A DNA stretch of 64,000 nucleotides from Thelonectria olida (Eukaryota > Ascomycota > Sordariomycetes > Hypocreales > Nectriaceae): NCBI GenBank assembly GCA_020736575.1, contig JAGPYM010000033.1, forward strand, positions 186,001 to 250,000, given 5' to 3'. The first letter of the stretch is position 1. Every line of letters begins with the position of its first letter. The notes beneath the pieces were generated by a model. It saw only the letters and a list, made by a program, of their open reading frames with translations. It had not been told where the DNA came from and searched no databases. This document shows, in pieces, positions 5,643 to 59,044 of this stretch. The translations under genes and the position numbers were made by a program.

Positions 5643-5914
5643 GTTGTGTGCATAAGTAGCTGCCTCTCCACATTATAGTGTTTCTCTTTCTAGCTCTGGG
5701 GAGGTACTCCGAAAGACAAGAATAGACTTTTCCGAGTCCAAAAGTGGCCACTACTAATACAGCAAAATTGCTTGATTGGCCAGTTTTAGTCTTGCGCCAA
5801 ACGTACCTCTGCGTATTGAAAACCCTCTCATCTTTGAAAGACACTCTTTACACTCTTTACACTCTTTACAGGCGAAAGAAGAGGCCGGCGCTGCCGTGAG
5901 CGGGGGATCGTGAG
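5643..5914 (+). other. junction and 5' leader of LINE B
   Basis: This stretch lies between the right target duplication of LINE A and ORF1 of LINE B. It holds a short tandem repeat of ACTCTTTAC (three copies, about 5845-5873) just before the LINE B ORF1 start at 5915. Repeats of this kind occur in LINE leaders. The exact 5' end of LINE B cannot be seen, and no target duplication matching its 3' end was found here. LINE A may have inserted into the leader or flank of LINE B. Confidence 0.5.
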
Positions 5915-10300: not shown

Positions 10301-11141
10301 CGAGGTGGTGGCCAGGTACTCGATTATGATCGGTTCCAGAGACGACCAGAACGTGTACACGGCAGAGCTGGAAGCTATAGCGACGGCGCTGAGATGCATG
10401 CCAGATGGACTTCAACATCGACAGTTGACCGTTATGACGAGCAGCCGATCAGCACTGCAAGTGATCGCGCGGCCGCAACAGCAGTCGGGACAATGTACCG
10501 TCCAGGAGATCCATAGGCATGCCGAACGACTCCAGAAGAGTGGCAACATCGTTAAAATGCTGTGGGTACCAGCCGGAGACAAGGACTTCCCGATGGGCAG
10601 CGAGGCAAAGACGGAAGCGCGAAGAGCCGCACGAGGAAGACAGAGACCTGAGAAACCAATATACCAAGCGCGTTCCACACGGATGAGACTAGCGATCGCA
10701 CAGCAACAGCGGCAGAAGATCCTGCCCGATGGGGTCGGAAAGTACGCGAAGCGAATCGACAAAGCGTTACCAGGTACACACACACGCTCCCTGTATGATG
10801 GACTGAAGAGACGCGAAGCAGACATGCTCTCCCAGCTCCGCACGGGGATGGCTAGAATCAACAGCTACCTGCACAGGATTGGAGCAGCAGAATCGGACAT
10901 GTGCACTTGTGGACAAGCAGCAGAAACGATGGAACATTTTCTATTCCGGTGTACGAAATGGGACACGCAGCGAGACGGCATGCGACAAGTCGGACAAACA
11001 ATGATGGGAAACCTCCCTTTCTTTTTGGGCGGAAAGGCAGCATCGGATGGACCTAAATGGACACCTAACCTACAGGCGGTGCGGGCGGCGATTAAGTTCG
11101 CCATGGACACGAGGAGACTTGATGCAAACCAGACTGTATAA
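7359..11141 (+). pseudogene. LINE B ORF2 with two in-frame stops
   Basis: One continuous frame runs from the ATG at 7359 to 11141 but is broken by TAG at 8859-8861 and TAG at 9228-9230. By alignment to LINE A the first replaces Gln (LPDQWR) and the second replaces Trp (LLRWVEAFC). Both fit single CpA-to-TpA changes, on one strand and the other, which is the RIP signature. The endonuclease ([22 protein letters not shown]), the RT with an FVDD box after SMA, the RNase H-like region with only its glutamate kept (TAELEAIATAL) and the terminal CTCGQAAETMEHFLFRC motif are otherwise preserved. Inactive unless complemented. Confidence 0.9.
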
Positions 11142-11438
11142 CCTACTAACTAACCACATTTAGCGGCCAAATCTGGCGATACTAACATCAAACAGCCTCA
11201 AGTTGGCAGACCATGCTTCAGCTGCTGAAGATAGGATGCTGAACACTTGGAGAAACTGGCCTTCAAGCAGGCCTGTCACATCAGAGTCAAGCGAGGCGGG
11301 ACTAATCAGTGGACGAGGAAGAATGTGGGGCTTCTGGGTGATCTCGATTAATCGTTAGAACTGAAAATAGTTTAGCGTCATGGCCCTATGAGGCTTGGTC
11401 CTCCCGGGCGTAATAAATTTCATTCATTCATTCATTCA

Positions 11439-11498
11439 GTCGCCCCTTTCGGCTCAAGAGCCGCCGGGCGTAATAAATTGCGTTGCGTTGCGTTGTAC
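11439..11498 (+). repeat. 5'-truncated LINE 3' tail fragment
   Basis: Directly after the LINE B (TTCA)n tail lies a second LINE 3' terminus. It reads CCCCTTTCGGCTCAAGAGCC, then GCCGGGCGTAATAAATT and a (TTGCG)n tail. It resembles the ends of LINE A and of the fragment at 22.74 kb. It is either an older truncated insertion or a template-switch product added when LINE B inserted. Confidence 0.75.
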
Positions 11499-11867
11499 AT
11501 ACAGAGCATGCTGGCGCCAAATTTCGCTACTGGCTACGCTAGGCAAAGTACATATTAGAATCGGTGGTTGTGGAAAGAATCTCGCATATGGTAGAAACAG
11601 ATCTTGCTTGCAGGGCGGATGCGCACAACAACTAGCCTTCCCTTCCACAGAAGCCAAATATGGTCAATTGGCAAGGTACAGTATATGCAACGTGGTGCGC
11701 TTTGAAGTGTTGCTAGAATGGGGCATGGTTGTGGATCTCAGTGGGATTATACAAAGGAGTTAGGAAATGGACGATAACCGTAGCCGCGGTAGAGAACATC
11801 ATATATGAAGTTAACATCTAATGCCTTGCTCGACAGTCCGTTGCAGAGGATCGTCTCCTCCAGCATC
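11499..11867. other. no gene seen
   Basis: Normal base composition. Short open frames exist here but none has recognisable features. It may be the upstream region of the small MADS-like frame that follows. Confidence 0.5.
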
Positions 11868-12086
11868 ATGGAATCTCTTCCGAAAAAGCGAGATAGAACG
11901 AATGAAAATTTCTCTAGGGCCATGCAGCGCCTTATGCAAAGATGCAATCAAGTAAGTCGTCGTTACGACGCAGATGTATACATTCAAGTGCGCCGAAATC
12001 GTCGGTACCGCGACTTCATCTCGACCAACGATCCATCATTTCCACTTGCAACTAGCGAACTTGTGAGTTCGCTACTCCAGACAGAC

Positions 12087-14991: not shown

Positions 14992-15023
14992 AGACAGACT
15001 TCATCTCTCTAACCGTGGGATAA

Positions 15024-15349
15024 GGACAAATTATATCCAGTCCCTATCAGGAAAAATCAGGATAGTTTCTGCTAGCAAGGGAGCATTTCGTCGATGCGGA
15101 CAGCTTTGCATCGAGTAAGCAGAAGATAGCCACTAGATTGAAATCACAGACCCAATGAGCAAGGATCGATTCCATATCAGCTCTTCCCACACATGAACAA
15201 TTCCCGAAGGTGCCAATGACCAACTGAGCTCGAGAACGTTCAACAAGGTTTCATGAAAGCCATCTCTAATTAAGACGACGATTGTGTGCAGTTAGTTTAT
15301 TCACTAGGATACAAGACCAGCATAGTAATCTGAGACCGCACTTGTCACG
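15024..15349. other. no gene seen
   Basis: Stretch between the end of the split small ORF and the copia target duplication. No convincing coding sequence or repeat was seen. Confidence 0.5.
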
Positions 15350-15354
15350 TATAC

Positions 15355-15477
15355 TGTCAAACATCACGGTGTTTGAAACAGTAATGCGTAACAGGAGTTG
15401 GGGATGTGTATAAGTATGAATGCTCCCGCCTGTTTGAATAATATATAGAATAACAAACACAATCACTCATTCCAACA
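15355..15477 (+). repeat. copia 5' LTR
   Basis: This LTR is 123 bp, short for a copia element. It begins TGTCAAACATC and ends CATTCCAACA, so it has the usual TG..CA ends. It contains a TATATAGAATAA stretch that could supply TATA-like and polyadenylation signals. It matches the copy at 21491-21613 base for base as far as I can compare. Confidence 0.95.
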
Positions 15478-15489
15478 GGTTATGAGCCC
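15478..15489 (+). promoter_or_regulatory. primer binding site, initiator-Met half-tRNA type
   Basis: GGTTATGAGCCC starts immediately after the 5' LTR. It is the reverse complement of GGGCUCAUAACC, the anticodon stem-loop of initiator methionine tRNA (anticodon CAU), and not of the tRNA 3' end. This is the priming mode known from Drosophila copia and yeast Ty5, where a tRNA fragment cut in the anticodon loop primes minus-strand synthesis. Confidence 0.8.
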
Positions 15490-15628
15490 GGGTTCTGCAC
15501 GCAAGCGAGACCCGGAACTACATATGTCTACAGCTAAGCTTCCGCAAATGAGTGATAACCCTCTCTAGCAATCTCTAACCAACCTATTAGAAATGACAAA
15601 TTGAAAGGCGAAAAGATCAAGCAGCCTA

Positions 15629-15790
15629 CGTCACAGCAGCGATGGTGCTACAGTTGTGAAACCACAACCAGACAACAGACCCATCAAAAGACGTCGCAGC
15701 AGCGATGATGCTGCATTTGTGAAACCACAACAAGACAAAACCCCCATCAAAAGACGTCACAGCAGCGATGGTGCTACAGTCGTGAAACCA
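15629..15790 (+). repeat. 63-bp tandem repeat in copia leader
   Basis: Units start at 15629, 15692 and 15755; the third is partial. The open frame through them encodes repeats of the type PIKRRRSSDD with VKPQ spacers, resembling basic nuclear-localisation motifs. This frame ends at a TAG (15869-15871) and is in phase with the SANT-like ORF that begins at 15875. There is no ATG upstream of the repeats in this frame, so whether it is translated is unclear. Confidence 0.7.
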
Positions 15791-15874
15791 CAAGAAGAAG
15801 ATAAATCACAGACCCGCCGCGTAAGCTCAAACCCGCTTCACCAGAACGGCATGCAACACACAATGGAATAGAAA

Positions 15875-16711
15875 ATGCCATTCCCAATCACTGGATCCTT
15901 AGTTGACCTTCTTCAACTATCGACTATATCTCCAAAGAAACCACCGCGACCACAGAGAAAGCAGCGAGGAACGTTTCACCGCTGGACGGACGAGGAACTA
16001 AACCTCATTACGTATCTTCGGCTGCATCGCAATTGGAGCTGGGTCCAAATTCAAAGGACATTCTTCTCGTCAAAATCGGCTGCTGCAGTTAGGCTAGCTT
16101 ACACGCACATACCGACTGAAGAACGCATGCACCGCGCGACAGCGGCATTGTCTCTGCCTGTCAACCCCACGAATATTGTCGGTGAAGGGAGCGGCATCCG
16201 CAATAGAACCCCCATATCTACTCCTTCCTCCAAGCAAGGAAGAAGTCACTCCATTCCAGCCGCTTCTAGTTCTGTTCAGACCGGGAATGACATCGAGCTC
16301 GTGGCTTTGACCGCATCAAGTTCTGAGGACGAATGTACAACCTTCACCAACAATAGCATTACCAGTCGTTATAAACTTCGTCCAAATAGACCTAAGAGCT
16401 TCAAGGAAAATAGTTCGCCGTGTCTGGTTGACCGCTCACGATTTCCCCACTTCTGTCAGGCATATAAAACTCACTGGAAGCAACACACGGCACCTGACAC
16501 AGATTACTATCCACCTTCTCAATCGCCTACACCGGAATTGAATGATCGCAGTCCCTCCGTCGCCTTGAGCCTGCTCAGTAACGCATCAAGCCTAGAGCTT
16601 TTTGGCCTAGAAGTACGTCCGGTCAACCCGCCAGATCCTGGCCTTTCCATCATTCCAAGCTCGCCCGGCGACGAGTTCCTCAGTGCAGAAGAATATCCGG
16701 CCTCACCATGA
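15875..16711 (+). CDS. SANT/Myb-like ORF carried by the copia element
   Basis: This 278-residue protein lies between the 5' LTR and gag, where copia elements normally have no gene. Residues about 30-80 look like a single SANT/Myb helix-turn-helix (FHRWTDEELNLITYLRLHRN, then WSWVQIQ and the alternating hydrophobic third helix). A basic proline-rich stretch precedes it. The rest is low-complexity and serine-rich, with one SRYKLRPNRPKSF segment. Its TGA overlaps the gag ATG as ATGA at 16708-16711, so gag may be reached by reinitiation. It could bind DNA to direct integration or transcription, but that is inference. Confidence 0.75.
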   Translation: MPFPITGSLVDLLQLSTISPKKPPRPQRKQRGTFHRWTDEELNLITYLRLHRNWSWVQIQRTFFSSKSAAAVRLAYTHIPTEERMHRATAALSLPVNPTNIVGEGSGIRNRTPISTPSSKQGRSHSIPAASSSVQTGNDIELVALTASSSEDECTTFTNNSITSRYKLRPNRPKSFKENSSPCLVDRSRFPHFCQAYKTHWKQHTAPDTDYYPPSQSPTPELNDRSPSVALSLLSNASSLELFGLEVRPVNPPDPGLSIIPSSPGDEFLSAEEYPASP

Positions 16712-19320
16712 CGGACATTGCAAAGTTTGAACAATTCGGCCTAAATGCGTTCTATAATGCTATCCCAACACTCGACAATGCCAATGACTGGTTCAAGTGG
16801 AACCAGAAGGTCAAAGAATTCATTCAAATATCGGCTGTTGCTGAAGACGGAGCAGACCCACCATTAGAAGAAGAGGATGTGCAACAATGGGACCGCCGCC
16901 AGAAGTTCTACTCAGCAATGCTCACGGCAAAGTTGACGCACAATGCTGCGCAACGGATCAATGCCTTTGAGATCCATCGAGTTCACTCTCTTGTCGGGGC
17001 AGTCAAGGAGAACTTCAAGCCAGAAGGCTCTGGGACCTATGTCAACCTCCAACGACGATACATGTCCCTCACGCGAGAAAAGTGTGGGAGCGCCCAAGCC
17101 CTTGGAGCTGAGATCAGAAGGATTCACGCCGAGAAGCTCCTACTTGATCCCGACTGTGTCACATCAGAAATTGAGCGGATGTTCTTCTTCATGCACGCAC
17201 TAGGCCCTGAGTATGAAGCCTTCCGTGACCACATATTCAGGCAAATGGATCTCGTAAACGACAGAGACGCAGACGGGAATGTAGTCAAAGCGGCACCCAC
17301 GTTCGACTACATTGAGAACAAGGCAATCGAGGAAGAACACAGGAAAGGGCAGCTGGGAAAACAATCGAGTGAGGTGCAGGTGCTTCCTGTTCTTGCTCTG
17401 GTTCGGGGGCCTGGCCAAAAGAACCTCATTCCGTCATCTGATGGAACCACATGCCGAATAGAGATCGACAATGTTCCCTACTGCTCCTTCTGCCGAAAGC
17501 CCTACCACGTCGAAACCGAGTGCTTCAAGAAAAATCCAAAGCTAAAAGGCCAAGGGAAAGACGAAAGGGGCAACAAGGCAAGGACACGGGCCTCGCAAGC
17601 CAACGGTCGAAAGCCGTCAAAGAGACAGCACTCCACTGATGATGAGGATGACGATGCGGCTGGTCCGAAAGACCCGAAGAAGCCCACCTTCATGGCGATC
17701 AAGGCTACAGGAGAAGATATCAATGCGGCATTTGGAAAGGACGTCGAACGCAGTTGCGCCGCACGCACCTACACCCTCGCGATGATGGCTACGAGGACGC
17801 TCCCAATCCGCGACGCCTGGATCGTCGACAGTGGCTCTGCCCAGCACGTATGCAATGACGCCTCGAAGTTTGTTCAGATGGACATGTATCACGGGCCCGC
17901 ACTTAGGAGCGTTGATGCATCCACATCTCCCTCAGGGGTGGGGACGGTAAATGTTCTGTGCAATGCACGGGGTAGAAGGAGATGGCTCGTCCTCGACAAT
18001 GTCCTTTTTGTCCCACCTGCACAAGCAAACCTCATATCCGTGCTCCAGTTACTCGAACGAGGAGCCAAAGTCGAGTTCTCAAGCAAGGGCGCGAGTATCC
18101 GCAACAAATTAAGTAAGAGGAGCGGGTACACCGCAAGCAAATACCACGGTGTTTACGCACTCGACCTATGGACGAACCTCTCTTTTCCAGCCTACCACGT
18201 TAGCCCACAAATGACCCTCTGGCACAACCGACTGGCCCATCTGAGCGATGCGAATTTACGGCGGCTTAAGAAGCAAGCCCACGGCATTCGAGACGTACAA
18301 CCACGAGAACCATGCAATCCCTGCCTTCAAGGGCGAATGACTGAAAAGCCGCACAACAGCTCAGGCAGAAAGGGAGAATACCCAATGGAGCTTCTTCACA
18401 TGGACGTCGCAGGACCGTTCGATGAGGGCCTTGATGGCAGTCGCTACTGGCTCACCATCGTCGATGATTCGACCGGGTGGATCGAAGTCATCCCCATACC
18501 ACGACGACAGGGATTTGTCATTGAGTCACTGCGCTTCTTCCTCGATCATAACGAGCGCCTTGAACGAAAATGTAGACGAATACGACTTGACCGGATTCCT
18601 GAGCAAGTGGGAGAACAAATGAAATTTATCCTCTTCTCTCGGGCAATTCAAGCCGAGGTCACTGGCGTTGATCAACATCAGCAGAACGGCGTTGCCGAAA
18701 GAGCTCACAGGACAATATACGATCGAGTCGGGCCTACACTAGCGCATGCTAAACTCCCATCAAAGTTTTGGCCAGAGATAGCCCGAACAGCAGCATACCT
18801 TTCCAACCGATCGCCCTCGTCAAAGCTTCAGATGACACCGTACCAGGCATGGTACGGCGAGAAGCCTGATTTATCACGACTAAGGGTGATCGGGTCGAGG
18901 GGGGAATACCTGGTCCCACCGAAGCAAAGGAAGAAGCTGACTGAGCCACGAACAAGGCCATGCATTTTATTGGGCTACGAGGGAAACACCAACTACCGCA
19001 TCCTACTAGAAGATGGGAGGATTGTTGGGACTCCAAATGCCGAATTCCATGAAGCCCTTATGACTCCCTCCACACAGACTGTACAAGATGTGGGAGCCAA
19101 ACGATATGGCTCACCTGAGGCAACGGCTGCTGCCGCAGGGGGGAGTGAGACGGTGGGGCCACTAAACCAACCGTCGGTAAGCATACGGCAAGCATCCGTG
19201 GCAGCCTCTGGACGTCACGCGACCGTGGCAGCACCAGAGCAAATCTTATCTGAAACAAGCCACGGGGACTTGCAAATATTACCTCGTACGAGCACTGAGG
19301 ACTCGCAAGCACTACCTTAG
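16708..19320 (+). CDS. copia Gag-protease-integrase, ends at in-frame TAG
   Basis: The 870-codon frame holds a UBN2-type Gag (FKWNQKVKEF, about residues 25-200), one CCHC knuckle (CSFCRKPYHVETEC from C259), an aspartic protease (WIVDSGSAQHVCND, catalytic D374), the pre-integrase HHCC zinc region (LWHNRLAHLSDANLRRLKK) and the integrase core (LLHMDVAGPF, later HQQNGVAERAHRTIYDRVGP with its glutamate). The expected middle aspartate region is atypical (IRLDRIPE). It stops at TAG 19318-19320 inside a tandem peptide repeat of the form SDDDSQxLPR. The next frame continues in phase, so this is one gag-pol with one stop. Confidence 0.93.
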   Translation: MTDIAKFEQFGLNAFYNAIPTLDNANDWFKWNQKVKEFIQISAVAEDGADPPLEEEDVQQWDRRQKFYSAMLTAKLTHNAAQRINAFEIHRVHSLVGAVKENFKPEGSGTYVNLQRRYMSLTREKCGSAQALGAEIRRIHAEKLLLDPDCVTSEIERMFFFMHALGPEYEAFRDHIFRQMDLVNDRDADGNVVKAAPTFDYIENKAIEEEHRKGQLGKQSSEVQVLPVLALVRGPGQKNLIPSSDGTTCRIEIDNVPYCSFCRKPYHVETECFKKNPKLKGQGKDERGNKARTRASQANGRKPSKRQHSTDDEDDDAAGPKDPKKPTFMAIKATGEDINAAFGKDVERSCAARTYTLAMMATRTLPIRDAWIVDSGSAQHVCNDASKFVQMDMYHGPALRSVDASTSPSGVGTVNVLCNARGRRRWLVLDNVLFVPPAQANLISVLQLLERGAKVEFSSKGASIRNKLSKRSGYTASKYHGVYALDLWTNLSFPAYHVSPQMTLWHNRLAHLSDANLRRLKKQAHGIRDVQPREPCNPCLQGRMTEKPHNSSGRKGEYPMELLHMDVAGPFDEGLDGSRYWLTIVDDSTGWIEVIPIPRRQGFVIESLRFFLDHNERLERKCRRIRLDRIPEQVGEQMKFILFSRAIQAEVTGVDQHQQNGVAERAHRTIYDRVGPTLAHAKLPSKFWPEIARTAAYLSNRSPSSKLQMTPYQAWYGEKPDLSRLRVIGSRGEYLVPPKQRKKLTEPRTRPCILLGYEGNTNYRILLEDGRIVGTPNAEFHEALMTPSTQTVQDVGAKRYGSPEATAAAAGGSETVGPLNQPSVSIRQASVAASGRHATVAAPEQILSETSHGDLQILPRTSTEDSQALP

Positions 19321-19450
19321 GCGGGCGACGGGGACTCGCAAATACTACCTCGGGCGAGTGACGATGACTCGCAAACACTACCTCGATCGAGTGACGATGA
19401 CTCGGGAGAGCGAGAGCCGTCCCAATCGAGTGACGATGACTCGCAGCCAG
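19280..19450 (+). repeat. tandem peptide-coding repeat at integrase-RT linker
   Basis: Imperfect 33-36-bp units encode DSQ(I/A/T)LPR followed by an acidic SSDDDS. Four to five units are visible. The gag-pol TAG replaces the arginine position of one unit, so it lies in a flexible linker and not in a catalytic domain. Confidence 0.7.
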
Positions 19451-21336
19451 TTGCTGAACAGGGAGACAGGACCTTGTCGCCTCTTGGGAGTGACGATACT
19501 TTCGGGTCTTTTCCGGATGCCCCAGAAAGAGACGATCCACTGCCCAACGGTGGCCAGCAACGGGACGACGCTCGTCATGACCAAGACTCAGGAGAACGGC
19601 AACGATATCCGAGGCTCCAGCTTGATCGCCCAGTTCATGGAGTGAGGCAAGAAGCCTTAGAATATCACCCTGAACTCAGAATCCGTATTCCGCAGGCCGC
19701 ATCAGATACATCCGATGACAGCGTAGAAGAGCTCACGCTGATGAATGTATCTGAAGGCAACGTAATCCCGACGTTCTTGACAGTAGCTGCGGAAGAAACG
19801 GAACCCTTTGAACCAAAAACTGTTCACCAAGCGAAGAACGACACAAGCTGGCCCGAATGGGAAGGGGCAATGCTTGAAGAAGTCAATTCGCTCAAACAAA
19901 ACAAGACATGGGAGCTTGTTGACCCTCCCAGAGATCGACGGGTCCTCAGTGGCAAATGGGTCTTCAAGCTCAAGCGAGGACCGCAAGGAGAGGTCATCCG
20001 CCACAAGAGCAGATGGGTGGTTAGGGGTTTCACACAAGAAGAGGGAGTCGACTACGACGAAACGTTCGCCTCTGTTGTCAAGCCAATGAGCTATAAAGCT
20101 TTATTTGCAATCGCGGCCGCTCTAGACCTTGAGATCGAACAAATGGACGTCAAGACAGCTTTTCTATATGGTGGTATAGATTATGAGATCTATGTCGAAC
20201 AGCCTCACCACATGACGGACGGCACATCGAGGGTCTGCAAGCTCCGGAAAGCACTCTACGGCTTAAAGCAAGCTCCCCGCATCTGGTACCAAACGCTCAC
20301 AAACTTCCTACGCAACCTCGGCTTCGAACCAATCAATGCCGACCTCGGAATCTTTGTGCGAAGCAACATGTACATCGCAGTGTACGTGGATGACCTCTTG
20401 ATCGTTGGGCCGAGCATCGCCGAGATAAAAAGGATCAAGAGGGCCCTTAGAAACCGTTTCCAAATGACAGATCTTGGACCCTGCAGCTACTACCTCGGGA
20501 TGTCCATCCAACGAGACCGACAGAACAGGATGCTGTACCTGAGCCAAGGAGCCTACATCAACAAGGTCGTTCAGCAGTTCGGGCTTAGCGATTGCACCCC
20601 CGTCAGTACACCGATTGAAACCTCGCCACCGACAGAAAACAATCCAGACTATAGCTGTCCCTCAAGACAGAGGGTTGAATATCAACGCATTATAGGATCT
20701 CTGATGTACATTATGCTCGGAACAAGGGGGGACATCGCATACGCAGTGTCCATGGCGAGCCGGCATCTGGCGAACCCAGGACCACAACATATGAAGCTCG
20801 CACGACGCATCTTGCGGTATCTCAAAGGCACAAAGGATCTTAGGCTCACGTACAAGGGCCATCTTCGAATGCTGGAAGGATACACAGACGCGGACTGGGC
20901 TGGTTGTCGTGACACGCGACGATCAACTGCTGGATACCTGTTTAACATCGGAAGCGGAGCAATCAGCTGGCAATCTAAGCGCCAGAGTGTCGTTGCCTTA
21001 TCAACTTGCGAAGCTGAATTCATGGGGCAAACTCAGGCAACCAAGGAGGCGATCTGGCTGAGAAGGCTTCTCGATGAGCTGAACCTAGGCCAAGGAAGAG
21101 CTGCAACAATCATCTGTGGCGACAACCAAGGAGCCATAGCCCTATCCTCGAACCCGCAGTATCACTCACGGACTAAGCATATGGAAATTCAACGCAAGTG
21201 GCAAGGAGAAGTTCAAGAAGCCGGGACGGTTCAATTGAAGCATATCCCAACTGCAGAGCAAATTGCCGATGGGTTTACCAAACCCCTTGCACGAGACAGG
21301 TTCGAGTGGTTTCGGAAAGGGTTGGGTATCGAGTGA
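19321..21336 (+). CDS. copia reverse transcriptase-RNase H, in phase after the TAG
   Basis: The frame is open from just after the TAG to 21336; the first ATG-type start given by a simple ORF call would be near 19474. The RT starts at WELVDPPRDRRVLSGKWVFK and shows DVKTAFLYG, LYGLKQAPRIWYQ and the YVDD active site (about 20383). The RNase H shows YTDADWAGCRDTRRSTAGY and STCEAEFMGQTQATKEAIWL. The end, IADGFTKPLARDRFEWFRKG, is the standard copia terminus, so the C-terminus is complete. Expression needs readthrough or a stop-free source copy. Confidence 0.93.
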   Translation, partial: AGDGDSQILPRASDDDSQTLPRSSDDDSGEREPSQSSDDDSQPVAEQGDRTLSPLGSDDTFGSFPDAPERDDPLPNGGQQRDDARHDQDSGERQRYPRLQLDRPVHGVRQEALEYHPELRIRIPQAASDTSDDSVEELTLMNVSEGNVIPTFLTVAAEETEPFEPKTVHQAKNDTSWPEWEGAMLEEVNSLKQNKTWELVDPPRDRRVLSGKWVFKLKRGPQGEVIRHKSRWVVRGFTQEEGVDYDETFASVVKPMSYKALFAIAAALDLEIEQMDVKTAFLYGGIDYEIYVEQPHHMTDGTSRVCKLRKALYGLKQAPRIWYQTLTNFLRNLGFEPINADLGIFVRSNMYIAVYVDDLLIVGPSIAEIKRIKRALRNRFQMTDLGPCSYYLGMSIQRDRQNRMLYLSQGAYINKVVQQFGLSDCTPVSTPIETSPPTENNPDYSCPSRQRVEYQRIIGSLMYIMLGTRGDIAYAVSMASRHLANPGPQHMKLARRILRYLKGTKDLRLTYKGHLRMLEGYTDADWAGCRDTRRSTAGYLFNIGSGAISWQSKRQSVVALSTCEAEFMGQTQATKEAIWLRRLLDELNLGQGRAATIICGDNQGAIALSSNPQYHSRTKHMEIQRKWQGEVQEAGTVQLKHIPTAEQIADGFTKPLARDRFEWFRKGLGIE

Positions 21337-21490
21337 GGCTTACGAGTTTTTGACTGCAGCAAAGGCAAGCTGTACAGGCACCCTTTCCTTTATTTTTCCT
21401 TCCGAAGGTTTTTAAAGGTTTTAACGGGGCCTATCAACACTGTGATGAACAGTCGATAGCACTCCTGACAGAGCAGCCATCGAGTGGGAG

Positions 21491-21613
21491 TGTCAAACAT
21501 CACGGTGTTTGAAACAGTAATGCGTAACAGGAGTTGGGGATGTGTATAAGTATGAATGCTCCCGCCTGTTTGAATAATATATAGAATAACAAACACAATC
21601 ACTCATTCCAACA
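21491..21613 (+). repeat. copia 3' LTR
   Basis: This 123-bp LTR is identical to the 5' copy and is followed by the target duplication TATAC at 21614-21618. The identity implies few or no generations of divergence since integration. Confidence 0.95.
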
Positions 21614-21663
21614 TATACAGTTCGGCAAACAGGCAACTGCAGCATGCTTATGCTTGTGCACGT

Positions 21664-22075
21664 CCGTTGTCCCAGGACCAGAGCTGTCCCAGGACCAAAG
21701 CTGTCCCAGGACCAGAGCTGTCCCAGGACCAACCAAAGCTGTCCCAGGACCAGAGCTGTCCCAGGACCAACCAAAGCTGTCCCAGGACCAGAGCTGTCCC
21801 AGGACCAACCAAAGCTGTCCCAGGACCAGAGCTGTCCCAGGACCAACCAAAGCTGTCCCAGGACCAGAGCTGTCCCAGGACCAACCAAAGCTGTCCCAGG
21901 ACCAGAGCTGTCCCAGGACCAACCAAAGCTGTCCCAGGACCAGAGCTGTCCCAGGACCAACCAAAGCTGTCCCAGGACCAGAGCTGTCCCAGGACCAGAG
22001 CTGTCCCAGGACCAGAGCTGTCCCAGGACCGGAGCTGTCCCAGGACCAGAGCTGTCCCAGGACCAAAGCTGTCTA
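21664..22075. repeat. minisatellite with 38-bp higher-order unit
   Basis: The array is built from a 17-bp unit (TCCCAGGACCAGAGCTG) and a 21-bp variant with an extra CCAA (TCCCAGGACCAACCAAAGCTG). The 17+21 pair repeats seven times, with single 17-bp units at both ends and one G variant near 22030. Because 38 is not a multiple of 3, long frames are open on both strands; these are artefacts of the repeat, not genes. It starts about 50 bp after the copia element. Confidence 0.95.
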
Positions 22076-22123
22076 ATCGAATACAAAAAGTCTAAATTTA
22101 TCACCATTAATAGAAGCGTTGTA

Positions 22124-22658
22124 CAGTGGGGTGCGGATCTATCACTGTAATTTTGCCAAACAAGGCCAAAACTAGTGCGAAGAGTCCATTTCTGACCGAA
22201 GCCTACGTTCAGCGTCAGTGTTTGAGCTCTGAAATCTCTCAAAATTTTGCTAATTTTAGCGACTTGCGCACTGTCTGTGTACGGTGGAACCGCGCGTAAT
22301 TACCGAGAGCGACCAGAAACGGCCAAATGTCTCCGTACTTCGTCTACTTGGTCCATTTTTGGACAAAACTACACTGAATTACTGACGCTGAACCTGCACC
22401 TCAGTGTATGTATCATCGTTTAGTGAACGTAGGCTTCGGCCAGAAATGGACTCGGGGATAATTATGGATGAACTTCCAGGAGGTAGGCAGCCAGAAGTTG
22501 CTCGTAGCCCAGGTTGTTGATGCCCGAATGCCAAGGCACTGATATGCTGTTATTGTTGGAATACGACAGGGGCATATTCGCGCTAGTTTTGGCCATTTTT
22601 GGCCATTTTTGGCAAATTTACAGTGATAGATTACTGACGCCGGGCCGGCACCCCACTG
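22124..22658. mobile_element. pogo/mariner-like MITE, nested
   Basis: The 535-bp element has terminal inverted repeats that start CAGTGGGGTGC and end GCACCCCACTG, flanked by TA on both sides (22122-22123 and 22659-22660). The arms pair over about 60 bp once a gap of about 15 bp in the left arm is allowed. It carries no transposase. Inside is a second inverted pair (about 22185-22212 with 22424-22449) and a further TIR-like end near 22368-22406, so it looks like one element inside a related one. Confidence 0.75.
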
Positions 22659-22742
22659 TACCGCGCCGTGCATGCATATTTCTTTAGAGACTACCAAAGG
22701 AGGAATCCGATTTCGCCCTCGATAATACAGAATATTTGGGCC

Positions 22743-22812
22743 ATATATGTGTACATTAGTAATCAGTGCCCTTTCGGTTCAAGCCGCCGGGCGTAATAAA
22801 TTGTATTGTAAT
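22743..22812 (+). repeat. 5'-truncated LINE A-type 3' tail
   Basis: About 70 bp match the 3' terminus of LINE A closely: ATTAGTAATCAGTGCCCTTT, then the GCCGGGCGTAATAAATTGTA end with a TTGTA-type tail. It is a dead-on-arrival insertion of the same LINE family. It ends about 35 bp from the stop of the HMG-box gene. Confidence 0.85.
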
Positions 22813-22845
22813 ACAGACCACAGACCATATTCTTCAGGTGTTTTG

Positions 22846-23349
22846 CTAAGCTAGACTCTTCTCGTGATTCGCTTTCTCGGTGATAGCTAATGTCTTAAAC
22901 CATGTCCGCAACTGTTCTGATTCCCGGAGCCAACTCTCTCCACATATCTTCGAAACGACTTGTTGAAGTTTAGTGCCATAGACCCGCTCAGCTGCATGCC
23001 GAAAGGCTATTCGATAGAGAATGAAGGCGTTTGGTGGGCGTTTGGCCTTGCCACCAGCTGCTTCTAGGCGCCTTTGTTCTGGGGTCCGCTGCACATATTG
23101 CTCGATTTTGTGTATTGACGTTGGCGAAAATTCACAGTTGCTAAGGACATCAACTCTATGACATTGCGGTGATGCGATGTTCGATACGTCTTCGGGCTGC
23201 TCGATCGGATCCGGTATATCCGGAAACAACAACCAATCGCTTTCAAGCCACTCGGTCCACGTATATTCAGCGTCAGCAGAACTCGGGCAGTAATAATCTT
23301 GAAAGGTTCTTGGCTGAAAGACGGGATGTGAGGGATTGGTCGTGGCCAC
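22846..23349 (-). CDS. HMG-box protein, short C-terminus
   Basis: This is a single frame of 167 residues. The N-terminal 90 residues are acidic and aromatic and of unknown role. The C-terminal half holds an HMG-box pattern (about residues 100-163): KRPPNAFILYRIAFRHAAER, then SKICGESWLRES and a third helix WFKTLAITEKANHEK. The opening resembles MATA_HMG boxes of fungal mating-type and related regulators. The protein stops right after the box and lacks the usual basic tail, and a LINE tail lies just downstream, so the 3' end may have been cut. It could bend and bind DNA as a regulator. Being the MAT1-2-1 gene itself is unlikely because the usual mating-type neighbours are absent. An upstream exon cannot be excluded. 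Confidence 0.65.
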   Translation of the reverse strand: MATTNPSHPVFQPRTFQDYYCPSSADAEYTWTEWLESDWLLFPDIPDPIEQPEDVSNIASPQCHRVDVLSNCEFSPTSIHKIEQYVQRTPEQRRLEAAGGKAKRPPNAFILYRIAFRHAAERVYGTKLQQVVSKICGESWLRESEQLRTWFKTLAITEKANHEKSLA

Positions 23350-24991
23350 AGTTTGGAGAATATGATTCTTACCATTGAGGGATAATGTAACAAGGGCCCT
23401 TCAGAAATAGGAGTTGTATCATTGAGTAAGGCAGTATACAAAACCATGCCTTGATCTGCGGCGGAATCCATGACTAGTCGTCGAGCTCGAGGATTGCGGA
23501 AATCTTGAGCGGTGCGACTACCTCATCGCGTTTCAGAAAATGATTGAGAAAGGTAGTTTTTCAAAGGAATAATACAGTACAAGAAAACTCAGACCGAACA
23601 ATATGTATTACGGAATACATGTGCTTTTAAAATCAAGTACGCCCATCTACAAGTCCTCTTCCGGCACATGTACATACTTTCTAGACAGTGCTTTGCGTCC
23701 GATCCATACGAACTGAATAAACACCCATTTCCTTCCACGGCTGTTTGGAAATGTTTTACCGGAATTTGAGGGAGGGTGTCTCATAAGAAGTTTTGTTGGC
23801 GTGGCCAGAAATGGATCAATTTAACTATATACGGCCCGAAAATGGTTATAGTCCCAAATTGGCCGACGCATTAGTCTATGCTAATCACCGTTTGAAATGC
23901 GACGCGGATTAGGCAAGCGGTGAGCGGGACGTACTTGAACGGTAGTCTTTTGAGTAGGCGGTGAAAAAAGTGGGTAGGTATGGGATTTCATAACCCTTTT
24001 TATAATATTTGGATAATTCACAGAGGGCTTCGCCTAAGATCCTTACTTCCATAATTACTCAAGTTATTCCATTTGCTTTATATCCTAGTTGCAGCCAAGT
24101 CTCCACAAGAAGGCATTGCTCTGCAATCGCGCATCTTTCTAACATATGTTTTTGCCTACTGCGCTCTCAGAGTGCAGATTATAAGCACCTAGATAGCTTG
24201 AATCAGGCTTAGACACCTTATAGTGAACGATATCGTGCCCATCTGACTAACAGCCGAAATTAATCGGATAGGTAAACTGCTGTCTCAACACTATGCTAGT
24301 CGCTCGAGTAGGTTTTCAGTGGAAAGTTTACTGAACGTTCTCGTACTCAATTAACCATTAAATAATACTAATGTTTTGCTTCATATATCCCAACAATCTA
24401 TTGGCTATCTTCTGCTGACTCAACATGGAGTTGTCCGAACTATTGAAATAATGCTCTCATACGAGTAGAATTTATCTGGGTTCTCCTGATAAGAGCTGGA
24501 TATATATTGCCCTTATATTGGAACTATAAGTGTTTTCGTGAGGAAGTTAAGTAAGACTACATTACTGAGCGTTCGAGAACTCAGAGTCTTTAGACAGCCT
24601 CGCTATCTTAACGCGAGAGTGGCCACTGAAGTCGGTGTAACAGCTTAGTATGCCAATAGCTTGGTGTGCTGGCGCTGTGTGTGGTAGAACGAAGATTAAA
24701 TGCCACGAGCTGTACTCACCCCCTACTCCTAACAACTGCCCTACTTCAGTGGCCCAATCACCACGGGATCACGAAGTCAAACCGTGATCCAAGACAAACG
24801 ATCACAACCTGCAACTGTAATTCATTTGTACCCAAAGTAGAATCCAAGCTTCCTCAGCTTTCAATACAACTTGATTACACTCAACTACTTTGAGCACATT
24901 ATATGTATAACTCGTGTCTATTTCTAAGATGAATTCAACCTAAAACCTAGAAAAGAGATTTTCCACGAAAGGGAGGCAATCACATCTGTGC
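23350..24991. other. no gene seen
   Basis: 1.6 kb of moderately AT-rich sequence between the HMG-box gene and the recombinase. Short frames such as 24009-24212 have no recognisable content. No inverted ends or long repeats were noticed by eye. Confidence 0.5.
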
Positions 24992-27651
24992 TTATCGATT
25001 ACCCTTCACCATTTGACGGTGCCTAGCTTTCCGCCATCGTCTATCCCTCACTTGCACCGAGGATCGGAGAGTGACCCCATGAATATTTTGAACGTGGCTC
25101 CGAAAGTGGTCTAAATGTTTGAACTTCTCGTCCTTACATCTAGGGTGTTCGCACCTGATTGGTTCTCCACGATGCTCGACGCGCTCCCGCCCCGGCAAGT
25201 GACAATCATCAAAGTGATCATTTCGAACCGTGGGACGGCAGTACAGAAACTTCCGCTCCTCCAACGAAAGCCGTTCATCGCCAAAGCAGTCCGGGCACTG
25301 TGTCGCTTCCATGAGAAGAGGGAAAGAATTAGGAGTTGAACGGTATTCCGCTCCAGGCGATTCAACCTTGATAGGCAGAGTGGTTCGAGCTTTCTGTTGG
25401 ATGTGCTTCCGCCTCACTGTCTCCCGTTTACCGCATAAAGCGACCATGAGATCGATGGCTTTGATCCTTTGTTGGAAAACCTCCTCCTCGGTCCAATCAT
25501 CAGGCTGCTTGCAGAGAAGTTTCGCGAGCCTGGCACGTTCGGGAATGGAAACATCAATCTCAGGTTCCACGTACTCCTCCTCTTCTTCCCCTCGCGCCTG
25601 TCTTTCAACATCCCAGGTCGGTGCATTATAGAAGAAGAATTCGCGATACCGTTTGACCACACGCAGTTTGTGATGTGCACACTTATTGTCGATGGTACGT
25701 TTAAGCTGTCGAATCTCTTTCTCGTGCTCATGACCCTCAATGCGATATCTACCCCCTCTGAGTTCCTCGAGTTGCCTTTCAAGTTCGATAATTTCCGGGT
25801 CTGGCGGAGTATTCTCCCACACCTCTGGGGGAACCATATTTGCAGTCGCACGGGGATCGCGAGTAAGGCTAACATAGGCGAACATGCGGAAGAGTTCGGT
25901 TTCTTTCTCTTCTTCCAGGAAGGCATTCTGAACGTCGAAATTGAGGATCTCGTTCAGGTAGGCGTTTTGAAAGGTCAGAAATGCAGGATCGTGACGCATC
26001 ATTTGGTCACGGACAGGATCAGGTGCGTCTCCTAGAAAGAATGAATTATGTCAGCCCAGTCCCAAGCCATGACCTCATTCGATACCACATCCCATCCTTA
26101 TGGGGGTTGCATAAAAACATACCATTAACAGCATTTGCGGTACCTCTCCTAGCGAACCTAGGTGTTGTTTTTTTCTCATTGCCTAAGTCGAGACTCTGCT
26201 GTCCCATATCATCTCTAAGCTTGGTATACTCCATGGGCTCGTCGGCCGAGAGAGTATGGCCATGGTAGCGACGGAAGATCGGTATTTTCAGCTTGGATAT
26301 CTTCCATCGGAGCGGGAGGCACTCCTTAAATCGCGGCGGGGCCTTGGAAAAGACGCTGGAAGCATTGATCAAGCTCGGTGCATCGAATGCTTCATCATGG
26401 AGGGCGAGAGCGAGGATTGTCGAAACAGCACAAAAGGCGAGCTTTTTAGCAGGCGTGAAGTAGAAAATAGTCCTAGAATAGTTAGTATACAAGATGCCTA
26501 ATACCTAGGGACGAAGACCGGTATAAAAGAAAAGAAAAACACATACGGCTTAGGTTTATTATCAGCGCCCTTATGGTGGATAAACTTGATAGCCATGGCT
26601 AGTATGCACCGTTTGGTGATAGGATGGCGCACGATCATCATCTGAATGTCTTCATAGCAGAGGGCCTTAGGACGTCCGCGTACTACGGTCTCTTGAGCAA
26701 GAAGGTCGTCCAGTATTTTGGAGTCTTTATCCAACGCCGGCGCCTGGTCTGCATCATCATCCGGGGTTGAGTGAACAGCTTTGCAGCCGAAAAGCACTCC
26801 ACCGGAGCCATCTTTCGGCTTCGACCGCACGGCATTCACGAGCTCGGCAGGGCGTGCTCCGGTATAACAAAGGAGCTGGTAGCAGCCGTGCATGTTGAGG
26901 CGGTGTCGCTCGCCGGGGAAGGTTTTCATGTCGAAGGCGATATTAAACGTCACGTGAAGACGTAGACTGTCGACATTGAACACCGGCTTGCCATCCTTGT
27001 TCGGCGGTTGATGGTCGAATCGAGGAATCAGAACGCTATTATAATACTTGATACACATCAGAAGGGCCCAAATTCAGGGTCAAGCAGTAAACAGCTAGTA
27101 CGGTGTAGCGCTAAGACAATGGAAAGAGATGCCCCATACCTTGTATACCTCCTTAGAGTCGTTGCGGTCCATGTAGCGACCGTTTAACGTAGTATATAGC
27201 TGCTGGAATTGACGAATATACACCTTGCCGGTGCTCCATGAGGAGATATTGTACTTCTCGCATATGAATAGGAAAAAGTCTTGCGTCGTTTCACGTTTGA
27301 GGTTCTCGATCGTCGCCTTCCAGTCACCCACCTTCATCTCGCTGCAGTATCTGCATCGATCAAAATCAGTACGTGGTAAGTCTCGTAAAGGGACGAAGGG
27401 AATAGTTGGCCATACCGCTGCCATTTTTTGAAGATCCCGCAAACGTTAACTTGAGTTTCGTGAGCGTACCTTGGTTTGATGAAGAGAACGGTGGTCAATT
27501 GCGCTCGATGAGCAGCGTGTTGTTCAACCGAGAGCGTCTCCTTCTGCTTTTTAGCTCGGTCCTGCGCCTCGTGGGTAGCGAAATATTCGAGAAAGGCGTT
27601 GTGATCTCTCTTCGTGCCCATGCGCGAGGCCGAAGGAGCGTGCGATGTCAT
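24992..27651 (-). CDS. DUF3435 tyrosine recombinase (Starship captain-like)
   Basis: Five exons join cleanly: 27651-27416, 27350-27140, 27046-26547, 26472-26123 and 26031-24992. The introns are 65, 93, 74 and 91 bp. The frame closes to 778 residues with no stop. Landmarks: helical N-terminal DNA-binding part (about 70-200), CYTGARPAELV with the likely catalytic arginine 214, ARRGTANAVNG (about 423-433), then MRHDP and the NAYLNE tyrosine near 457, which together give the R..R..H..Y pattern of tyrosine recombinases. The C-terminal part adds a CPDC..C cluster and a C2H2 finger (CEHPRCKDEKFKHLDHFRSH). DUF3435 is the family of Starship captains, which lie at the 5' end of the element and read inward; here that would place the element to the left. 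DUF3435 proteins with C-terminal fingers also occur outside known Starships, so captain status is inference. Confidence 0.85.
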
Positions 27652-28044
27652 TTGGGAAAAATTCGGTGACGGATAAGCAACGCTCGCGAGGTTTGGGGAG
27701 GTTGTCTTGCGCTGACGAGATGATGGGGACGGAAGGGAAAAGGGGCGCGAGGTCGTTGCCGCCCTTTATGGCAGGCGGCGGTTGCGAAGACTCACGATAC
27801 CAACATGACGGCGGGAAATAGGGCACGGTTTGTGGGACTGATGGAGAGTCCAGAAATTGATCCCAAAATTGGGAGGATCCAAAAAGGATCCCGGCATGTG
27901 CAGGTGGTCCGTGTAGTAGGCATGGACATAGGTATATAGTACCTCTCGCTCTCTTGCTGCTCTGCAGTTCCCCCGCACTGCAAGCGCCTCTAAAAACAGC
28001 GGCACTTTCCACCCGATTTGGCGGCCCCAGCAGCGCTTTCTCGG
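27652..28044 (-). promoter_or_regulatory. upstream region of the DUF3435 gene
   Basis: About 390 bp of normal composition separate the recombinase start from AT-only DNA. The change of composition near 28045 is abrupt. The region is a promoter candidate and could hold the 5' edge of a mobile element. No inverted end was confirmed. Confidence 0.4.
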
Positions 28045-29260
28045 TTTATTGAGTAATATAAAATATTAATCTAATCCTTTTAAACTATTATATGTTAAAT
28101 AAAAAGTTAAATATATAAAAAATAATTTTAAATTTCTTTATAGGAAAACTAGCTAATATAATTGCCTTTTAAATTAAATATAAAATAATAGGCTTAATTA
28201 AAATAATTAATTATTTTTTATAAAAATATATATATAACTTAAAGTTATAGCTTTAAAAGCTATTATATATAATAGTAATAATTTAAATAGTTATTTATAT
28301 GTAAAATAATATAAAATAAAGGAAAATTTTAAAAATAAAAAGTAAGTTAAATAGATAAGTAAATATAAGTATTAAAAAGTATAAGGGGCTAAAAGAGTTA
28401 AATAAAAAAGAAAGTTTAAAAATAAATTAAATAGATTTAAAAGTAATTAAGCTAATAGAAATAAGTAAGGTAATTAAATAGAAAAATATATAAAAGTTAT
28501 AAATCTTTTAAATATTTATTAAAATCTCTTATTAGCTTAATATATTTAAAGAAATTTATATATTTTAATATATAATTAATAGTTATATAGCTTTTATTAT
28601 CTAGTTAAATAATATTATATTTAATTAATAAAAAGTTAAGTATTTTTACTATTATATATTATATTATTAGTTAAATTATATAAATTATAATTAAATAGAA
28701 AAAATAAATACTTTTTTATTAAAAGCTTATAATATAGTTTTTTAAATAAGATTTATTTAATGAAAACCTTTATTTTAAAACTAATTATAAGCTTTATTAA
28801 AAAGTTTATTAAACTAAATATAAAGCTAGAGTTTAGCTTATATTAACTTTTATTATATATTAAAATTATTAGCTTTTTTAATAATAATATTATTTTAAAA
28901 AATCCTAATTATTAAAAAGTTATAATATATAAAGCTACTTTTATTAAGCTTATAACTTATATAAATATATTTTTTTAATTTTTTACTTTTAACTTATAAT
29001 TAATAGTTATTATTATTATTATTAAAAGCTAATAATTTAAGCATATAATAGAGGTTAATATAAGCTAAACCCTAGCCTTATATTTATTAAAATAAGCTTT
29101 TTAATAAAGCTTATAATTATAATTAATAGTTATATTTATTAAATTATAATATAATAAACTGAGTTAAAAACTCTTTTATTTTTATAACCTACTAGAAAAT
29201 TAGCCTGCCCCATATATATTTCTACTATTAAAGCTACTAATACTCTAACCCTAGAATGAT
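28045..29260. repeat. AT-only block, RIP-type repeat relic
   Basis: Almost all C and G have been lost and TpA is very frequent. The few remaining C are nearly always followed by T. It contains a forward copy (about 28735-28862) and a reverse copy (about 29040-29170) of a motif ending AGGGTTTAGCTTATATTAAC-like, which also occurs at 42.6, 55.0, 61.3 and 61.7 kb. This points to an inactivated transposon. No gene survives. Confidence 0.8.
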
Positions 29261-35683: not shown

Positions 35684-37101
35684 GAGCTCCTTCTTGATGC
35701 TGGGGCGGATGTCAATTTCATCGGCGGTCGCTTCAACAGTGCTTTGTTTGAGGTGCCCAAGAAGGACACGATCACATTGTCAAGCTTCTCATCAGCCACG
35801 GAGCTGAAGTGGGGAAATCAGGCGGTTCCTCTGCAAACCCTCTTCGAGTCGCGGCTGAGACTGGGCACAACGAGGTCGTCCGAACACTGCTGAAGAGCGG
35901 CGCAGACGCAGACGAGTACGACGAACTCGGTGTCAATGTCCTGTTCTGGGCCATCATATCATGCTCCGAGAGTACTGTGAAAGCCTTAGTCGATGCTGGT
36001 GTTGACTCCCGCACTTTTATTTCACCCGGTTTCAACCTGCTTCATTGGTTCAGCTTATACGGTGACGAGGCCGATGTTGATCTTCTGCTTGAAGGAGACG
36101 ATGCCAAGCGTCGGGAGCAGCTGGCGGCAGAGGACTTTAAGGGTTCAACACCTCTGCACTGGGCGGCGTCCAACATGCGTGAGAACGTCCTGAAGGTCTT
36201 GTTAGACGCCGGTTCTGACCCTTCAACAGCGAACAACTACGGCATCACCCCCATTCATCTGGCGTCTGCAAAGTCGGGCTTCGATCACATCCAACTTCTG
36301 TTGGACCACGGGGCTGACCTGGAGGCCCGAGATGTAATGGGATTCACCATCGCCCACTATGCAGCGCTGAACAGTTCCGAGGACATTCTTGGATCCTTCA
36401 TTGAGTCGGGGTTGGATGTGGCAAGCCCAGATGATTATGGTCGAGCACCCATCCACATAGCGGCAGAATTCGGCTGCTTGCGGTCCTTGGAGCTTTTAGC
36501 CAATATGCCCGAGGACTTGGATCGGCAAGACATTAACGGATCGATGGTCCTGCACGCTGCGGCTCGTCACGAGCGAGAAGAATGCCTGCGCTACTGCCTC
36601 GAGCAACACACGGACACGACTTCATGTAACCTCGTCGGAATGACACCGCTGCACTGTGTCTTCGATGACAGCGCGTTGCCGTTACCAGACATGAGCTGCA
36701 TCCCCGCAAACTTCGACGGCATCAGAGACGAGTACTACCGTCGTAGGCAGAGAAGAACAAGCCAAACAAAGAAGCGCGGCGAAGATAAACACAAAGTTGA
36801 GCCCCGACCAGCTGCCAGCGCCGGCAGGCAACACGACCCAACGGTTCGCAAGAACAAGGTCCGGATGCTTCTCGAGCACGGCGCAGAAGTGGACGCCAGG
36901 GACGACAAGGGATACACCGCCCTCCATCTGGCGTGCTTCGACGGGAACATGGCCGCTGTCCAGCTCTTGCTAGAGCGAAACGCGGACGTCAACGCTCGCA
37001 ATGCTGAGAACAACCGGCCGGAAGACACTGCGAAGACGGAGAAGATCCGCCAAATTCTACGCTCTGAAGTAACTCGCCGGGAAATGTTAAAATATGCTTA
37101 A
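35684..37101 (+). pseudogene. ankyrin-repeat protein, 5'-truncated with a frameshift
   Basis: The main frame is open from 35755 to 37101 and has about nine ankyrin repeats (for example GSTPLHWAASNMRENVLKVL, GYTALHLACFDGNMAAVQLL), a linker of charged residues (about 36720-36850) and a C-terminal pair of repeats. Upstream of 35755 the homology continues in another frame (LLDAGADVNFIGG, about 35690-35750), so an indel near 35750-35756 breaks the gene. No start is visible; the ATG-like call at 35809 is internal. Such proteins often form the C-terminal sensor part of fungal NLR-like proteins, but no NACHT or NB-ARC is present here. Confidence 0.75.
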
Positions 37102-37319
37102 CACACGCATTGGTGTCATGTCCAGTGTCAGCCTAATGCACGATTCAGCCCGCATCATGCTGACTCATACTCAACTGCAGTAAGCTGACGACCAGGCTCA
37201 TAAGATCAGCACTAAGCCGCAAATAAAGTACAAGGCAACGCTATAAATGCCGCTCTTTTTCGTTCTTTATCACCTTTTCGTCTTATCGCCCTCGGCTTGT
37301 CACCCAAGCAAAGCCGACG

Positions 37320-39802
37320 ATGCGTTTACGTGAACTTCAATTCCGCCTCGGCGTGTTTTTCAAGCTCAAGGACGAGATCGCTCAAGTCTCAGAATCAGAA
37401 TGCACTCGGTGCGGCATCATTGTCAATGACTTGGAACATCGCAAGCTCGCCTCCATTTTGAGGCCCCTGGGCCCCGTTTATCGCAGTTTTCCTATCCACC
37501 GCCATTCGTTGGAACTGATAGCTGGCGTTAAGGCGGGTTGTTGGTGGTGCACTCGAATTCTTCAGCAGATCATGGACCATCTTGAGGTACAGGGCTTTGA
37601 TATCGAAATATTTCACAAGCTTTGTTCCAAAGTTGAGACGTTTGTGCAGTTGGAGTCAGCCATCGGATCGTATAGAAAAGCACGGGGAAGCGAGAATCCT
37701 CGCATACAACTGACGTTGAGCATATTCTTTTGGAAGAATGGTGCTGGCCCTGAAGATGCTACACGAATAGTGCAACAAGTCAACCGCAGCCGAGAGCCTC
37801 CATGTCTTGACTTGTCTCATCTGGCAGCCGCCACTTCTAGGCAACGCGAGTTATCCCACTTGGCAGAGCGGATTGACAACTGTACAAAGAACCATACAAC
37901 TTGCAACCAGAAAAGGGATTGGTTGCCGACACGACTACTACAGATTCATGTGTTGGGGGATACGGTGACTCTCAAGCTCGTTCCTGGGAAAGATGTCCCG
38001 TTGGACAGCCGGTATATCACGTTGAGCCACCGATGGGGTAAACAAGAGAGCCTGAAACTCACAAGGAACACGTTTTTGGAGCATTCACGCGGCATTCATG
38101 GAGAGAAGCTACCGAGATTGTTCGCTGAAGCTGCTCAAGTAGCAAATAGTCTCGGTGTCTGTTTCATCTGGATCGATTCGTTGGTGAGCCATCTCGCGAC
38201 CCATAGGACGTGTGCAGGGGATGCTAATCTTAGATATCATAGTGCATCAGGCAGGATTCTGATGATGACCTTGCAAAAGAGCTTGCCACGATGGACAACA
38301 TATACCAAAATGCATTCGCCAATATCGCCGGAACTTTTGCTTCCGATAGCTCTGGTTCCCTTTTCAGTGACCAGAACGCCCTGTCATTCTCGTCTCACCG
38401 GGCTCGCAAGTCCGGCGATGTATCTACGGGCTTGGCGACCGATTTCTGGTGGTTCGACTCTGACGATGGGGTATTCAACCGTCTCGAAGCCGAGTCTCTC
38501 TATTCGCGCGCCTGGGTCTTTCAAGAACGGCTCTTGGCGAGGAGGAACGTGAGCTTCACCGGCTCACAACTCTTTTATGAATGTTCTGAAGAGCTGAGCT
38601 GCGAGGCTGTCGAAATCTCCCACCCGTCTCTGAATAGGCTTTGTGTGGCAGAAGCCCTCAGGTGTCGGCCGTTTGACTCGTTTGACTCGGTAGCCTCTGA
38701 GGACTTTCGTCGTCCCCAATTGTTCTCCATCGAAAGTCTGGACCAGTTGACCCGGACGCAATGTCTGAACGTATGGGGGAAAATAGTCCAATCATACAGT
38801 GGACTGAACCTGACGGTTCCGAGTGACAAACTAGCGGCATTGTCAGGACTTGCACGAAGGTTCCATGCTAGGCTTCAGACACCATATTACGCTGGGCTAT
38901 GGGGCGCAAACCTACAAGCCGACTTGTGCTGGCAAAGGTCTCCGGATGGCAGTGACGATTCAGGCCCAGCTCGACGAGTAGACGGATATCGCGCTCCTAC
39001 TTGGTCTTGGGCATGTCTTGATGGCCCAGTGGAGGTAAAGCTCTCCACATATCACAGTCAGTGGTACTTTGAGATTCTGGAAGCGTACACCACCCCCTGG
39101 AAACGAGATCCATTTGCAAGGTTGATTGATGCCAAGCTTTGCCTAAGAGGCACCATGTTTGCCTTGAGAGAGGAAGATCTCGGCCGCCATGCTTTGGAGC
39201 ATGGGTATTACTCATCGGGCACTCTCGAGACATTTCCAGACCGGCCGAATATTGAATTTTGGTGGGATGTTCTGCCATCTGACTTGTCATTCCCCTTCTA
39301 CGCTATGGTGTTGAGGTCTGAAGGCCGCAACGGAATCTTGCACTTCCGGTGCCTGGTGATGACCGCTGTCGTCCCATCAAGGGGATTCTACCGGCGGGTG
39401 GGAATGGCCACAATCACTGTGTTTCCAAGACACCTCAAAGAGCTAATGGGTCAGTCAAAGGTGAACTCACAGTTAGTCCAGGTGGATACAACACCACTCG
39501 AACTGTTCCCAGAAAACGACTTTGCCAAAGAGTTTGTTGGTGAAGACTCGAGCAGCATCCGGGACATTGGGCAGAGCTTTGTCGGCGGGAGGACCGGGTT
39601 CATGACATTGCCCAATGAAAACACCGCGAGCATGTACAAAGCCATCAGTAATGGGGGCTCGGTCAGGACAGCATGTTCGGATGACAGAGGACCAGATCTC
39701 AAGGTGGCTGCTTGGTATTTGGAGGACCTACGAGAAAAAAGTAGTCAAGTCCCATCAATTCGGCGCGAGGAAGACGGAAACCATACAATCGTTATTATCT
39801 AA
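37320..39802 (+). CDS. HET-domain protein
   Basis: Exon 1 is 37320-38183 and exon 2 is 38243-39802, with a 59-bp intron in the classic place inside the HET motif, giving 807 residues. The HET domain (about residues 230-400) shows YITLSHRWG, then LGVCFIWIDSL joined to CIRQDSDDD, MDNIYQNAFANIAGT and YSRAWVFQERLLARRNVSF. An N-terminal region has CWWC and CTKNHTTC cysteine pairs common in this class. HET proteins trigger cell death in vegetative incompatibility. The C-terminal half has no recognised domain (RAPTWSWACLDGPV is typical of the family). The neighbouring ankyrin and AAA genes suit an incompatibility or immune region. Confidence 0.92.
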
Positions 39803-59040: not shown

Positions 59041-59044
59041 CTAG

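Follow-up and report, generated by a model that had tools for sequence, protein, structure and literature searches.

We have analysed a stretch of 64,000 nucleotides (the window) from Thelonectria olida, a nectriaceous ascomycete and soil fungus, which corresponds to positions 186001-250000 of C93, a contig of 386592 bases and one of the 165 that make up the 52.5-Mb genome. On its minus strand the window contains a gene for a tyrosine recombinase of the DUF3435 family. The gene is probably a captain, which stands first in a mobile element of the Starship type, and the 5' end of that element is placed at window position 28056. The features on which this reading depends are the following:

24992-27651, minus strand: DUF3435 tyrosine recombinase (putative captain), five exons, 778 residues, first gene
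28027-28051, minus strand: 5' terminal sequence of the element; a 24-base probe from it occurs at four genome places only, allowing up to 3 mismatches
28052-28056, minus strand: TTACT at the 5' edge, a target-type sequence identical in four copies
28057-29260, no strand: AT-rich repeat DNA outside the element, the first part belonging to the target repeat family
11479-28056, minus strand: element part of the window copy, matched in the three other copies except for nested insertions, its left limit being a long interspersed nuclear element (LINE)

The recombinase gene

The five exons (27651-27416, 27350-27140, 27046-26547, 26472-26123 and 26031-24992) join in frame to 778 residues and a stop codon, with GT...AG at the ends of all four introns, and the product is the deposited T. 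olida protein B0T10DRAFT_520891. An alternative model with another donor for intron 1 yields 760 residues, all of which match the deposited form, which adds 18; it was on this 760-residue model that the Pfam DUF3435 profile (PF11917) was scored, with E = 4.9e-56 and 190.9 bits against a cut-off of 25.8. Across the genome there are 35 exon-level matches to DUF3435. A first-pass annotation, made by a model from the letters of the window, had described an intact recombinase of this family with five exons in frame, and had pointed to an arginine, RRGTANAVNG, MRHDP and a tyrosine as its landmarks; the gene model bears out the first statement, and the landmarks are found as R214 in TGARPAEL, R424/R425 in RRGTANAVNG, MRHDP itself, and Y457. 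The catalytic-type residues are conserved in an alignment of the protein with 46 of the other 119 matches listed (252 were found), and a Foldseek comparison of the predicted structure identifies a fold of the Cre type.

A 5' edge common to four copies

The captain region occurs in four copies, which we call A (the window), B (C93:67143, plus strand), C123 (C123:71972, plus strand) and C150 (C150:41467, plus strand), the last two after their contigs. All four begin at the same nucleotide (window 28056) with TTACT, behind unlike flanks; the upstream likeness ends at TTACTATATAAACCGAG in C123, and at TTACTCAATAAACCGAG in the three others. Counted from the edge, 6282 positions could be aligned between A and B, and 99.55% of them agree. 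Copies A, C123 and C150 each have an open captain frame, the stop of C123 falling 4 codons later than that of A. Between A and C123 the gene has accumulated 21 synonymous and 33 non-synonymous changes (dN/dS 0.43; Fisher p 0.004), which suggests that it is under constraint, as far as one pair of lineages can tell. The edge falls inside the interval of 27.7-28.1 kb in which the first-pass annotation had expected it, and the gene heads the common region and reads inward, as also proposed there; its start codon lies 405 bp inside the edge. The decayed repeats described on that occasion are likewise present, in the form of nested LINE, Copia and hAT insertions and of AT-rich DNA. The GC content is 0.13 in the first kilobase of the A flank (bin 28001-29000), 0.11-0.27 in the B flank and 0.08-0.25 in that of C150; at C123 the AT-rich flank is only about 0.35 kb long.

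The insertion sites were compared with unoccupied relatives, the comparison covering the 5' half only and drawing on paralogous repeats within one assembly. The A flank belongs to a large repeat family, with 259 matches to a half-site pattern at up to 3 mismatches. Among 15 sequences that cross the insertion point (14 family members and the window's own, from 15 of the 37 family places listed), 13 have TTAC at that point, 12 have TTACT, and 13 fit TTAC(N7)A. For B, 6 of 13 loci (L049-L054) could be used; in the remaining 7 (L055-L061) the likeness was too low for the site to be located. TTAC is found in 3/6, TTGC in 2/6 and TTCC in 1/6. The one relative of the C150 flank, which chanced to lie in the sequence examined, has TTACT at the insertion point. 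One unoccupied member of the A-target family, with TTACT at the site, lies within the window itself in an AT-rich block at 59000-62000 (GC 0.16-0.18).

The background frequency of these motifs was counted on 21.0 kb of AT-rich and 161.5 kb of ordinary sequence, which are not a random sample: per base per strand TTAC has a density of 0.0053 in AT-rich and 0.0024 in ordinary DNA, and TTACT of 0.0046 and 0.00078 respectively, which makes the latter about six times denser in AT-rich DNA. These values bear on the idea that TTACT is the element's own terminus rather than derived from the target, in an element with no preference for TTAC. Its presence in 4/4 copies and the sites related to that of C123, which are without TTAC at the aligned point, would fit this idea; we regard it as unlikely, given that at the other three sites the relatives carry TTAC at the very point of insertion, where the background in AT-rich DNA would put it at only about 0.005 per base per strand. 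Judging from the sequences, this locus, headed by the captain, has moved, because four copies share an edge behind different flanks and unoccupied relatives of three of the sites show TTAC.

Shared DNA, nested insertions and the inner side

Inside the edge, and on the far side of it from the flanks just described, the window contains the following additional features:

22846-23471, minus strand: short HMG-box gene, its DNA in all four copies and its frame open in three (188-residue model)
21666-22109, no strand: array of tandem repeats, with the HMG-box gene on one side and the Copia element on the other, its length and matches differing among copies
15355-21613, plus strand: Copia-type long terminal repeat (LTR) retrotransposon, flanked on either side by TATAC; its two LTRs, 15355-15477 and 21491-21613, agree at all 123 bases
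12087-14991, minus strand: hAT transposon, window copy only, with ends CAGGCTTGCAAA...TTTGCAAGCCTG and the 8-bp duplication AGACAGAC
5841-11478, plus strand: LINE 1, an insertion found in A and B but in neither of the other copies
117-5612, minus strand: LINE 2, in head-to-head orientation to LINE 1, GACGATGTC on both sides

Under the 188-residue model, from which the deposited model differs at the N-terminus, the HMG-box frame has a 4-base gap in C123 and is open in the other three copies. It appears from its place in the four copies that this gene travels with the captain. As a candidate for a widespread Starship partner it was dropped, since a protein search gave only 2 matches, one of them from T. 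olida itself. The cargo that had been predicted, the HMG-box gene together with the nested transposons, is thus retained in its first part; the transposons are later insertions and are not common to all copies. The Copia element is present in A and B only, with its site unoccupied in C123, and the site of the hAT element is unoccupied in B.

C123 and C150 are alike for 19.3 kb from the edge, small gaps apart, and the shared stretch includes a DDE_3 transposase frame and an F-box/ankyrin frame. As the 5' flanks of these two copies are unlike, we infer that at least 19.3 kb would have moved together as one unit, larger than the captain alone. Starships measure 15-700 kb and carry cargo genes, and their terminal inverted repeats are usual, not universal; for the present element the at least 19.3 kb shared by C123 and C150 give a lower bound on size. 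Beyond 19.3 kb C150 follows C113:161243-176467 in order, and C113 has the cargo block at 149708-153765; the element of C150 may therefore go on, on a contig that ends 38.7 kb from the edge. The whole stretch C113:149708-176467, which has the cargo block of C123 and C150 and the right part of C150 in the same order, is on a contig with no DUF3435 match. On C81 other DUF3435 matches (C81:594636-601568 and C81:609477-612110) lie 8-15 kb upstream of a block resembling the cargo of C123 and C150, so that the same cargo may have ridden under a different captain. Outside the element, at window 35752-38552, an ankyrin-repeat frame adjoins a HET-domain frame.

The shared stretch of A runs up to LINE 1 at about 11479; LINE 2 comes next, and then DNA unlike the other copies examined. 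In B the copy of LINE 1 is cut at the equivalent of window 7420, a point common to C128, and the DNA beyond is C128-like (listed at 100%), consistent with a LINE-linked rearrangement in B. C128:105344-113657 and C93:80.6-89.0 kb (L024) are near-identical, with a 5'-cut LINE and the following DNA in common and with different 3' sides of the LINE; this pair looks like the outcome of recombination between LINE copies.

Traces of a 3' end were sought on the inner side. For the other half of the A target, every match on C93 that has at most 1 mismatch lies to the right of the edge (of the 259 genome matches to the half-site pattern 100 were listed, those with 2-3 mismatches lying outside them). No AT-rich DNA was seen on the inner side in 1-kb bins of the sequence examined. 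Between B and A none of the 200-base samples from 20 points of C93:94-178 kb was AT-rich (GC 0.37-0.61), nor was any of the 80-base samples from 10 points of C123:95-133 kb (GC 0.46-0.65); short AT-rich stretches could still lie between the points sampled. What looked like an AT-rich block at C93:88.5 kb proved to be a short last bin. Copies B and A are 147 kb apart and face each other; they were rejected as the two ends of one 147-kb unit, their flanks belonging to different repeat families. The end of the likeness between C123 and C150 (91262 and 61263, respectively) was also rejected as a 3' end: C150 beyond it follows C113, which also has the cargo block, and the C113 DNA to the left of the break point differs from the AT-rich 5' flank of C150. 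Since none of the copies showed AT-rich target DNA on its inner side in the sequence examined or sampled, the claim made here is limited to the 5' edge and does not extend to a whole element.

Weighing the interpretation

Several results weigh against a Starship headed by this gene. The first-pass annotation had envisaged a giant element running left from about 28 kb, and in none of the four copies did we find a 3' end, a direct repeat at both ends or the whole of such an element; the 24-base end probe matches only the four 5' ends at up to 3 mismatches, giving no sign of an inverted repeat, though a shorter one is possible. The core common to all four copies amounts to only about 7 kb without the nested insertions. 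An empty site, as also anticipated, is seen in paralogous relatives of three of the four copies (A, B and C150) and fails for C123, where TTAC stands at the aligned point in 0 of 13 loci (of 47 other places listed). TTAC(N7)A is fitted by 0/6 relatives of B and by 0/1 of C150, the final A being missing. As to the protein, the best Foldseek match to the model has E = 3.4e-3 and none reaches 0.001, the stretch around Y457 is poorly modelled (predicted local distance difference test score under 50), and in copy B a one-base gap breaks the captain frame.

The short common core would also suit a small Crypton-like element of about 7 kb, made of the captain and the HMG-box gene with no large cargo and ending near window 11.48 kb (C123:79.28 kb). 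The homology common to 4/4 copies does stop at that point, and captain-only units exist, those under 15 kb being treated in excerpts of PMC12153272 as captain indels and never as full Starships. We consider such an element quite unlikely: C123 and C150, with their different 5' flanks, remain alike for 12 kb further, AT-rich target DNA does not resume at the break, and A and B break off at an inserted LINE, with a few bases in C81 running through the point. The break at window 11479 (C123:79284), when weighed as the 3' end, was given low odds. Cryptons resemble the present element by description, as they have a tyrosine recombinase and no reverse transcriptase of their own; they differ from it in that at least 19.3 kb are common to two copies here, which speaks against a small element even though the end is not located, and according to parts of PMC12134995 the recombinases of Cryptons and Starships are very distantly related groups. 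Very improbable is the spread of a solo DUF3435 gene by segmental duplication rather than by its own transposition, for although solo genes are said in the same excerpts to be commoner than captains (PMC12134995) and LINE-linked rearrangement is present in this genome, four copies have one edge to the base and the unoccupied relatives of 3 sites run through it.

Most likely, then, the element is a Starship with a Hephaestus-like TTAC target. It resembles Starships, as described in portions of PMC12134995, PMC12153272 and PMC12506042, in that a gene for a DUF3435 tyrosine recombinase stands first, close to the 5' edge, and reads inward, and in its insertion into DNA rich in transposable elements and in AT; it differs in being known here from its 5' edge, as neither a 3' end nor direct repeats nor the full size could be seen. 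The TTAC at the edge recalls the Hephaestus family, whose canonical target is given in part of PMC12153272 as TTAC(N7)A, a motif which the relatives fit in full at only one of the four sites here. In the gene tree, as far as the excerpted text of PMC12134995 describes it, captains are scattered among solo DUF3435 genes, and therefore a test of membership in captain clades would not be clean.

In the mechanism proposed here, the Cre-like recombinase would join the ends of the element to a target containing TTAC; Y457 would cut, aided by R214, K308, R424 and H446, and the element would thereby come to lie behind TTAC. The copies occupy four genome places, each adjoining AT-rich, RIP-like repeat DNA (RIP, repeat-induced point mutation). 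The window copy later received the Copia, LINE and hAT insertions, and was probably parted from its 3' end by a rearrangement at the LINE.

RIP is a fungal defence that ruins repeats. A doubtful but possible extension of the mechanism is that RIP creates the landing sites, a C-to-T mutation turning TTGC into TTAC in old repeats. We raise it because of the six sequences of the B repeat family, in which two members with GC 0.25-0.26 read TTGC, while among the four with GC 0.18-0.21 three have TTAC and the fourth TTCC, and because of the density of TTACT and the AT-rich neighbours of 4/4 copies. A target motif as a product of RIP may be a new point, as a lead from six sequences. No publication on Thelonectria and Starships was found in the literature collection searched; the wider literature may differ.

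Starships are usually called by comparison of strains. Here a single assembly, through its four copies and their target repeat families, was enough to fix the 5' edge to the base, and the same one-assembly approach could place captains whose elements other strains cannot reveal. If the idea about RIP were true, silenced transposons would become docking sites for the next Starship.
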